Below are positions 12,060 through 13,157 of a stretch of DNA of 64,000 bases, in pieces (the first letter of the stretch is position 1; every line of letters begins with the position of its first letter). Below the pieces are notes generated by a model. It had not been told where the DNA came from. It worked only from the letters and a program-made list of their open reading frames with translations, and did not search any database. Made by a program: the position numbers and the translations under genes. Source of the stretch: Oscillospiraceae bacterium (GTDB lineage Bacteria > Bacillota > Clostridia > Oscillospirales > Acutalibacteraceae); NCBI GenBank assembly GCA_015066625.1, contig SVOC01000002.1, positions 1 to 64,000 on the forward strand, given 5' to 3'.

Positions 12060-12135
12060 GGGGGCGTAGCTCAGCTGGGAGAGCGCTTGAATGGCATTCA
12101 AGAGGTCAAGAGTTCGATCCTCTCCGTCTCCACCA
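12060..12135 (+). tRNA. tRNA-Ala (anticodon GGC)
   Basis: 76 nt with encoded CCA. The acceptor pairs GGGGGCG with CGTCTCC using G-T pairs. The anticodon stem CTTGA/TCAAG encloses ATGGCAT, giving anticodon GGC, which reads GCC and GCU. The outermost T-stem pair is an A-C mismatch (AAGAG with CTCTC), which is unusual. The last 19 bases of the gene are part of a repeat found again at 13109-13132. Confidence 0.93.
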
Positions 12136-12140
12136 CGAAA
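12117..12140 (+). repeat. Direct repeat, left copy (tRNA-Ala 3' end)
   Basis: 24 bp covering the T-arm/acceptor 3' part and CCA of tRNA-Ala plus CGAAA. It matches 13109-13132 at 23 of 24 positions. It has the form of an attachment-site duplication left by integration into a tRNA gene. Confidence 0.8.
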
Positions 12141-12193
12141 AGAGGCTGTATCAAAACATCGTAAGCAGATGTTATTGATACAGCCTCTTTTTA
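12138..12193. terminator. Long terminator hairpin at the left end of the inserted segment
   Basis: A 17-bp stem (AAAAGAGGCTGTATCAA with its complement at 12175-12191) is topped by a 6-bp stem (AACATC/GATGTT) after a one-base bulge, and a T-run follows on the plus strand. It now serves both tRNA-Ala and the convergent membrane gene. It lies inside the inserted segment, so it replaces the tRNA's original terminator. Confidence 0.8.
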
Positions 12194-12205
12194 CAATTTA
12201 TTCAA

Positions 12206-13033
12206 TCAGATTACCTTACCGCCAATAGATCTGATAAGTTCATTTACAGACCTCTGATCTACCCAGATAACAACTTCAAGCATTGCAAGAGCGGTCAGAA
12301 TGTGCCAGATTGAATGACCGTGGATGTTACCGAGAATAAAGGTATTGATTTCATTGTCTCCCCAAATAGAGGTAATAATGAATGCAACAAGGAAAGTGAA
12401 AATAATTAATATAAAGAGTATTTTTTCTGTTGAAGTCATCTTCTTGAAGTTTGCAACCAACAGATACAGAATCGGAAGTGCCGTCAAGAAGCACCCGAAT
12501 TCAGCAAGGGAGAGTCCACCGGTTTTGCCGTCCATCGGAGCTCCACCACCACCGATGTAAAGCGGTCTGTCGTGAAGAACAAACACCTCATATGTCAAAA
12601 CGGAAAGGACAACAAGCATTATTGCTGTAACGCCGATCAAGAAGATGTTCCTCTTTTTCTTCTCGCTTGCGTTCTGATAAAACTCAAAAGCGAAGCAACA
12701 TACACCGGACCAGGCGACCAACTCTGTAAAAGACATATCTATGTAACTTGCAAAAAGCTTGGTTGTGAGAACTCCGGGCTGGAATTCACCGTAGTTAGCA
12801 GTGTGCATACCAACAGAAGTTACGGACATAATCATATAAAGCAAAATAAAAATGTACCAGTACCACTTTTTGTTCTTTTTGATTAAAAGAATTGCAATAG
12901 AAATGAATGCCGCCAAAGTATATACCCAGTTTGTTTGCACTGCTGCATATTGGGCACAATACTCAGCCAGGGTTGTACCGCCTTCAATAATTATGTCTTT
13001 AAAGGACGGCCAGTCAATAAAATTAAATTCCAT
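12206..13033 (-). CDS. Seven-helix membrane protein with CREST-hydrolase residues (ceramidase-like)
   Basis: A 275-residue protein with a perfect AAGGAGG 8 bases before ATG. About seven hydrophobic segments are visible. Three features match the CREST superfamily of membrane metal hydrolases (alkaline ceramidases, PAQR receptors, Per1). These are Ser-x3-His in an early helix (SVTSVGMH, about residues 73-80), an Asp in the next helix (SYIDMSF), and His-x3-His in the last helix (HGHSIWH, about 241-247). Together they would bind zinc and act on amide or ester bonds of lipids. No closer family is recognised. It is the sole gene of the tRNA-Ala insert and is transcribed toward the tRNA. Confidence 0.6.
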   Translation of the reverse strand: MEFNFIDWPSFKDIIIEGGTTLAEYCAQYAAVQTNWVYTLAAFISIAILLIKKNKKWYWYIFILLYMIMSVTSVGMHTANYGEFQPGVLTTKLFASYIDMSFTELVAWSGVCCFAFEFYQNASEKKKRNIFLIGVTAIMLVVLSVLTYEVFVLHDRPLYIGGGGAPMDGKTGGLSLAEFGCFLTALPILYLLVANFKKMTSTEKILFILIIFTFLVAFIITSIWGDNEINTFILGNIHGHSIWHILTALAMLEVVIWVDQRSVNELIRSIGGKVI

Positions 13034-13108
13034 ATTTATTCCTCCTTAGATACATGTTATCATAAGTTTTTACATTATGCAACCTGAAATGTTTGTTTTT
13101 TTAAAAAA

Positions 13109-13132
13109 ATCTTCTCCGTCTCCACCACGAAA
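13109..13132 (+). repeat. Direct repeat, right copy (tRNA-Ala 3' end)
   Basis: Second copy of the tRNA-Ala 3' sequence with CCA, one mismatch to 12117-12140, with no tRNA body upstream. It marks the right border of the inserted segment. Confidence 0.8.
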
Positions 13133-13157
13133 GACAGTCTTCGGACTGTCTTTTTTT
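13131..13157 (+). terminator. Orphaned tRNA-Ala terminator
   Basis: AAGACAGTC (13131-13139), UUCG tetraloop, GACTGTCTT (13144-13152), then a T-run. It directly abuts the duplicated tRNA 3' end, so it is probably the terminator of tRNA-Ala before the insertion. Confidence 0.8.

Follow-up and report, generated by a model that had tools for sequence, protein, structure and literature searches.

A single-gene, integrase-free insert between a tRNA-Ala(GGC) gene and its most likely original terminator in a gut bacterium

Organization of the Locus

The window, a 64,000-nucleotide stretch comprising bases 1–64000 of contig C24, belongs to the genome of a gut bacterium (G000; 2.37 Mb in 32 contigs, 97.7% complete). 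ARAGORN and Rfam (RF00005) identified an intact tRNA-Ala(GGC) gene on the plus strand at 12060–12135, between a minus-strand gene of the MgtC family (11179–11883; Pfam PF02308) and a plus-strand MFS_2 transporter gene (13251–14705; Pfam PF13347). Repeat comparison indicated that the last 19 nt of the tRNA are the start of a 24-bp sequence (12117–12140, plus strand) that recurs as a direct repeat at 13109–13132, with 23 of 24 positions identical and a spacing of 992 bp. The initial annotation had taken this repeat for a piece of the tRNA 3' end. Its position and identity were confirmed, but it is not tRNA throughout: it consists of tRNA nt 58–76, beginning in the T-loop, and 5 nt of trailer (CGAAA) that continue beyond the CCA in both copies. 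The insert is thus bounded by attL-like and attR-like copies of the tRNA 3' end, the former belonging to the intact tRNA.

At its left edge, the insert has a terminator-like hairpin (approximately 12138–12191) whose 17-nt arms are 100% complementary. Folding of 12137–12192 gave −33.9 kcal/mol, and the UUCG hairpin at 13130–13153, on the plus strand, gave −13.2 kcal/mol; in each case none of 200 shuffled sequences equalled the value. A simple terminator scan returned no terminators and listed neither hairpin. The two terminators bracketing the insert are unrelated in sequence, and no further copy of the left hairpin was present in the genome. From its position, the left hairpin could serve both the tRNA and the gene that converges on it.

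Inside the insert there is one long minus-strand open reading frame (12206–13033), together with shorter overlapping ones. Its 275-aa product is hydrophobic, probably a multi-pass membrane protein, and distantly ceramidase-like. The insert therefore has, as had been claimed for it, a long hairpin of its own and one long gene. No integrase was found within it, the long frame matching no integrase family, and a tyrosine-recombinase search of the genome identified no integrase on contig C24. Rfam reported nothing above the gathering score in the insert except the tRNA.

As a control for the repeat, 36 tRNA genes of the genome were scanned, with their fetched surroundings, for further copies of the terminal 20 nt at up to 3 mismatches; six of the 36 had less than 500 nt of contig behind them in the fetched stretches. 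Tail copies were found on the same strand for three of the 36 genes and on the opposite strand for none, which argues that the repeat did not arise by chance. The other two genes with a tail copy were tRNA-Ser(GCT), at +205, and tRNA-Pro(TGG), at +9581.

The Cargo Gene

The 275-aa protein had no Pfam match above the cut-off. For the lipid-hydrolase character initially assigned to it, the match to the Ceramidase family (PF05875) was below the cut-off (E 0.42; 10.4 against 32.5 bits). The same family was the commonest weak match of the homologues, being found for 14 of 19 at E up to 1, with a best E of 0.0012. Five residues, S73, H77, D99, H240 and H244, were invariant among 19 sequences and fit an SxxxH / D / HxxxH pattern, which we take to be that of alkaline ceramidase-like proteins. 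A PDB profile search with the protein returned no chain at E up to 10.

Homologues of the cargo gene were identified in 10 of 60 genomes (G000 included), every one of them within the genus. A search of the genome collection gave 18 homologous loci, with identities of 55–91%. The flanks of these loci, some of which are short, fell by nucleotide similarity into 13 groups, or 12 if a 64–65% stretch is accepted as joining two of them, and the gene therefore sits in many places. At the seven closest loci it was 88–91% identical in amino acid sequence at 79–83% nucleotide identity, and these comparisons suggest a gene kept intact by purifying selection. Similarity to the closest loci extended upstream of the gene to 13047–13082, within the part of the insert (13034–13108, minus strand) in which the gene would have its own promoter and ribosome-binding site.

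The relationships of the cargo protein differed from those of LepA. In the genome that holds locus L018, the cargo protein was 89.8% identical to that of G000 and LepA only 84.1%; in G033 the corresponding values were 66.1% and 91.7%. No match to the cargo gene was found in G020, G036, G011, G002 or G027, near relatives with LepA at 95–99% (genomes 80–95% complete). This discordance, together with the lack of a match in near relatives, points to horizontal acquisition of the gene.

At 17 of the 18 homologue loci, tRNA-Ala was absent from the fetched DNA (up to 4 kb on each side, some contigs being shorter). At the remaining locus, L023 (G035; on the same contig as L004), the cargo gene is upstream of tRNA-Ala. 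This homologue, the closest among the 60-genome relatives, lies about 180 bp upstream of the tRNA-Ala(GGC) gene (L023 3986–5600), and beyond the tRNA we noted by eye the start of genes resembling phage lysis genes. In viral contigs, four stretches matched the pattern of the cargo gene, and none of them coded for a relative.

The Same Site in a Sister Genome

By LepA (99.2%), G020 was the nearest of 15 genomes, and it also gave the best matches to the MgtC and MFS genes. Window positions 9807–12136 and 13234–14703 aligned with it in order, at 84.2% and 87.6% identity, so that both flanking genes are collinear in the two genomes. Between these flanks, G020 has a full tRNA-Ala, an insert carrying a GH116 glycoside hydrolase gene, a tRNA copy whose tail is 2842 bp away, and the same UUCG hairpin, with one further gene between the hairpin and the MFS gene. 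Window positions 13109–13154 were 95.7% identical over 46 bp to the end of the right tRNA copy and the terminator of G020. Since the hairpin follows the tRNA copy of G020 with different cargo between collinear flanks, it is most likely the original terminator of tRNA-Ala, in agreement with its initial assignment to the tRNA. Judged from these alignments, the site between tRNA and hairpin holds different cargo in the sister species. A search for homology between the window insert and those of G020, G011 or G063 returned short, weak matches only (best E 0.012).

The right copy of G020 covers tRNA nt 17–76 (60 of 76 nt) and is joined to an attP-like arm. Because of this arm we read it as a junction and not as a decayed tandem tRNA, and we set aside the idea that the right copy is a decayed full second tRNA, with which the window taken alone is still compatible. 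The G020 copy appears to belong to a different event, in which the tRNA was cut in its D-loop; therefore, the inserts of the window and of G020 are not simple alternates of one recombinase.

tRNA-Ala(GGC) Loci across the Genus

A search for the tRNA sequence across 45 genomes of the genus produced matches in 36 of them. We examined 22 full tRNA-Ala(GGC) loci with DNA behind them, one per genome; six of the contigs end within 560 bp. A tail copy was present downstream at seven of the 22 loci. Apart from those of G000 (992 bp) and G020 (2842 bp), the pair whose flanks were compared, copies were found at 1507 bp in G011, behind a PI-PLC gene and in the form of a degenerate tRNA 3' half, and at 4903 bp in G063, behind DUF4379 and DUF4062 genes. 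The copies of G020 and G063 are of the D-loop kind. In G014, G033 and G025 the tail copies were at 186–211 bp, with no gene before them. Tail copies were absent within 18–19 kb in G027, G024, G013 and G021, and in shorter stretches at the other eleven loci; in G027 and G024 the tRNA-Ala is followed by another terminator.

An empty site, defined as the tRNA tail joined directly to the UUCG-hairpin terminator (CGAAAGACAGTCTTCGGACTGTC), had been proposed as a check of the insertion. No such site was found in the 45 genomes by an exact pattern, which a changed terminator would escape, and the only tRNA tails directly before this hairpin were the right copies of G000 and G020. One match to the empty-site pattern, in G067, was rejected, as its surroundings were not tRNA-like.

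Three relatives (G018, G026 and G066) have a tyrosine integrase gene whose end adjoins tRNA-Ala(GGC). The integrases of G026 and G066 are identical to each other and 83% identical to that of G018, whose element also carries a MobA/MobL relaxase. In G030, the contig continues for 64 nt past the tRNA, and this stretch matches G026 and G066 exactly. Three viral contigs contained 47, 53 and 50 nt, respectively, of the 3' end of a tRNA-Ala of the genus, and in those with 53 and 50 nt a gene with a phage-integrase domain was within 140 bp. An exact search of viral contigs for the 26-nt window-type tail found none. The genome G000 gave eight tyrosine-recombinase matches, seven of them above the cut-off and none tied to the tRNA-Ala(GGC) site. 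Together, these data indicated that tRNA-Ala(GGC) is an attachment hot spot and that the window insert is an integrase-free cassette within it.

Elements That Appear to Split the tRNA in Its D-Loop

Elements of a second type were observed at L108 2150–7200 (G063), L167 (G002), L043 (G032), L113 (G033) and L106 (G020). Within 1500 nt upstream of the tRNA, a 90-bp unit consisting of the first 22 nt of the tRNA and a further 68 nt precedes the full tRNA once in G063 and G033 and twice, in tandem, in G002 and G032. At the right end of the G063 element, GGGTGCGTTTTTGCG.. is joined to tRNA nt 17–76, and a terminator follows. The same arm is present in G020, which has no 5' copy upstream, and the exact 14-nt arm was found in 3 of 201 loci, which belong to G020 and G063. 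The outer arms of the G063 element form an inverted repeat with 20 of 24 positions paired around a central AG, a score that none of 20,000 shuffles reached (best 18). The only other 50-bp stretch of L108 with a score of 20 lies at a terminator hairpin, and no stretch of the window reaches it. We take the form of these arms to be that of a large-serine-recombinase attP.

Behind the tRNA of G002 there are genes for a 531-aa serine recombinase, a ParB-like protein and a relaxase, the last of these at the contig end. This was the only D-loop element with a serine recombinase gene, and its contig ends before attR. Searches with this protein in the other 44 genomes identified distant relatives only (at most 35% identity over at least 100 aa). 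The 147-bp left end of the G063 element was also found behind the tRNA-Ala of G002 (79%) and G020 (75%), and its first 23 bp were at the contig end of G032; all other matches to it in the 45 genomes had E of at least 2.6e-4. From the junctions, we infer that such an element splits the tRNA in the D-loop and would bring a complete replacement with it. In the window, the arm GGGTGCGTTTTTGCG before a copy of tRNA nt 17–76 was not found at 0–2 mismatches, and because the attP-like arms are absent we do not regard the window insert as one of this kind.

In G063 (L108 2188–2325), the sequences flanking tRNA-Ala can pair over 14 bp and are followed by a run of T, giving a terminator-like structure with the tRNA as its loop (z −3.72; 0 of 200 shuffles). 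A similar pairing around the tRNA, with a changed pair, was noted by eye in G020 (L106, near 6600–6720). Rfam found nothing above the gathering score but tRNA in six loci with either D-loop elements or the units of about 200 bp described below.

Origin of the Insert

We consider it probable, though by no means certain, that what occupies the 3'-end attachment site of tRNA-Ala(GGC), an additive-island hot spot, is a one-gene cassette with no integrase, and most likely the decayed, cargo-only remainder of a larger element, as in a CIME. Incoming DNA with a copy of the tRNA tail would have joined into the tRNA gene, most likely by the action of a tyrosine integrase from a phage or a mobilizable element. 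The tRNA would have been rebuilt by the incoming tail, while the host tail with its UUCG terminator would have been displaced by 992 bp. With the cassette would come a hairpin that now follows the tRNA and a single gene complete with its start region, and the larger element would then decay until the cargo-only remainder stayed. Re-mobilization of the cassette would be possible given an integrase of the right specificity. We counted in favor of this view the extent of the repeat from the T-loop past the CCA, the cargo of G020 and G011, the collinear flanks and shared hairpin of G020, the tail copies, the integrases of the relatives and of two viral contigs, and the intact and horizontally acquired cargo gene. 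Counted against it were the viral copies, which share 47–53 nt with a tRNA-Ala whereas the window repeat has only 24, the lack of an exact viral match to the window-type tail, the apparently different (D-loop) event behind the G020 copy, the absence of an empty site by the exact pattern, the absence of the same cassette from any other tRNA tail in the fetched DNA, and the lack of a tail copy within 18–19 kb in G027 and G024. An integrated insert between the tRNA and its terminator, the central proposal of the initial annotation, is thus upheld by the different cargo of G020 and the horizontal acquisition of the gene; its further proposal of mobilization in trans fared less well. It is simpler to assume that a larger element decayed, as a search for further copies of the cassette revealed no second one in G000 and the exact pattern matched no empty site in the 45 genomes, and we regard such decay as at least as likely as mobilization in trans.

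A true non-autonomous mini-element, namely a one-gene cassette that can still leave and enter the chromosome as a circle by means of an integrase from a co-resident phage or IME, would account for the self-contained form of the cassette, with its hairpin on each side, intact gene and nearly perfect repeat. Potential helpers are at hand, as three relatives (and a fourth, judging by its contig end) have a tyrosine-integrase element on the same tRNA, one of them with the MobA/MobL relaxase, and G000 has its eight tyrosine-recombinase matches, seven above the cut-off. However, none of those recombinases was tied to the site, there was neither a second cassette copy in G000 nor an empty site in the 45 genomes, the cargo gene was at no tRNA tail in the fetched flanks among 60 genomes and 18 loci, and the repeat has one mismatch. 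We therefore consider such a mini-element improbable. Somewhat less improbable, but still unlikely, is that an older and longer attR, left by a D-loop element that predated the split of G000 and G020, was truncated to the present 24 bp, and that the membrane-protein gene arrived or remained in the scar. G000 and G020 do share a tRNA-fragment copy and the UUCG hairpin in the same place (95.7% over 46 bp), and the G020 copy, with tRNA nt 17–76, is joined to an attP-like arm. Against this, the window has no such arm at up to 2 mismatches (one 3-mismatch match, at 32552, compares with 1.78 expected by chance), no upstream 5' tRNA copy and no left end of the element; the inserts of G000 and G020 have no convincing similarity; and the CGAAA after both CCA ends would have to be a coincidence.

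Duplication of the tRNA tail and its terminator, with no integrase involved and a gene that fell in later, seems to us very unlikely. Such a process may have made the units of 190–210 bp at several tRNA genes of the genus, among them tRNA-Ser(GCT) of G000 and tRNA-Ala(GGC) of G014, G025 and G033. However, in G014, G025 and the tRNA-Ser of G000 the terminator was copied along with the tail, whereas the terminators of the window are unrelated (they also differ in G033 and L146), and the interspersed repeat of the tRNA-Ser units, found at four places in G000 and at none on C24, is absent from the window insert.

Beyond the decayed cassette that we prefer for the window, we tentatively speculate, while holding it to be doubtful, that tRNA-Ala(GGC) is a shared dock in the genus. 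Integrase-free cassettes of one or two genes would be exchanged there with the aid of helpers, and two independent recombination chemistries would operate. In one, tyrosine integrases would act at the 3' end of the tRNA; in the other, a serine recombinase would cleave the tRNA within its D-loop and place an entire new tRNA after the promoter of the host, with 90-bp units that can be stacked.

Relation to Known Systems

The initial annotation held that elements of this kind were not a described class. This claim is not supported, as one-CDS islands of 330 bp (PMC10872708) and CIMEs (PMC5704250, PMC3146451) are in print, and the window insert fits the described class of additive islands and CIMEs, at its small end. 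The additive flexible genomic islands reported at tRNA-Lys of 'Ca. Methylopumilus' have repeats of the last 20 nt of the tRNA and range upwards from 330 bp and one CDS, with mostly unknown genes (PMC10872708). As in the window, repeats of a tRNA tail mark variable inserts that can be of one-CDS size, and the GH116 gene between collinear flanks in G020 is an instance of different cargo at the same site in a close relative. The islands described there differ in their varying repeat number and in reaching 63 CDS (PMC10872708), whereas the window insert is a single unit between two hairpins and comes from another phylum. CIMEs are described as elements that lost the genes for integration and transfer but kept attL and attR (PMC5704250). 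The window insert likewise has att-like ends, no integrase or transfer genes and an intact target gene, and would be a candidate CIME; no parent element with this cargo was seen among the 60 genomes, the 18 homologue loci or the viral contigs. Some of the ssrA islands of Dehalococcoides have been suggested to be CIME-like (PMC3146451). These resemble the window insert in their 20-bp repeats of an RNA-gene 3' end and in the varied cargo behind one RNA gene, in some cases with no integration module, and are reported to differ in their serine recombinase, their tmRNA gene and their tandem arrangement within 100 kb (PMC3146451).

For the D-loop elements of G063, G002 and G020, though not for the window insert, the nearest printed idea is the tRNA-dependent lysogeny of phages whose integration breaks a tRNA gene and which supply the same isotype (PMC10865867). 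According to that report these phages use a tyrosine integrase (PMC10865867), whereas the D-loop elements have an attP-like palindrome centered on AG and, in G002, a gene for a large serine recombinase, and their new tRNA lies immediately after the broken copy. Among the literature matches listed, none had a title that concerned the splitting of a tRNA in the D-loop by an element with a serine recombinase.

The insert is of interest as it shows to what size an insert integrated at a tRNA site can be reduced, namely one gene and two hairpins in less than 1 kb. The varied cargo found at this tRNA in relatives offers a ready system for asking whether the cassettes are exchanged or are only decaying. 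In addition, the neighboring genomes suggest an element that breaks and replaces an alanine tRNA, which is directly testable.

Other tRNA-Associated Repeats

An interspersed repeat of about 110 nt was observed in 33 of 45 genomes, and ARAGORN identified a tRNA in 11 of the 20 loci listed (L126 697–985, L146 1–740, L142 1280–1815 and L137–L156). At tRNA-Ser(GCT) it forms units of about 200 bp that consist of a terminator, the repeat and a tRNA-tail copy, and at L146 such units are in tandem with different terminators. When 18 copies were aligned, the alignment folded into hairpins with 27 pairs, of which 12 had a two-sided change that kept pairing in at least one sequence. We regard the repeat as reminiscent of the tyrT (rtT) repeats of E. 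coli. By eye, at L140, L149 and L152 (tRNA-Thr) and at L156 (tRNA-Asn), the repeat lies between a 5' tRNA copy broken in the D-loop and the full tRNA, the tRNA of L149 being cut by the contig end.

The tyrosine-recombinase search of G000 found none on C1, the contig that carries tRNA-Pro(TGG). At that gene (L129 670–10330; G000:C1), a copy of the 3' half of the tRNA lies 9581 bp downstream, and the intervening 9.6 kb contain, by eye, zinc-ribbon and lipoprotein-like genes.
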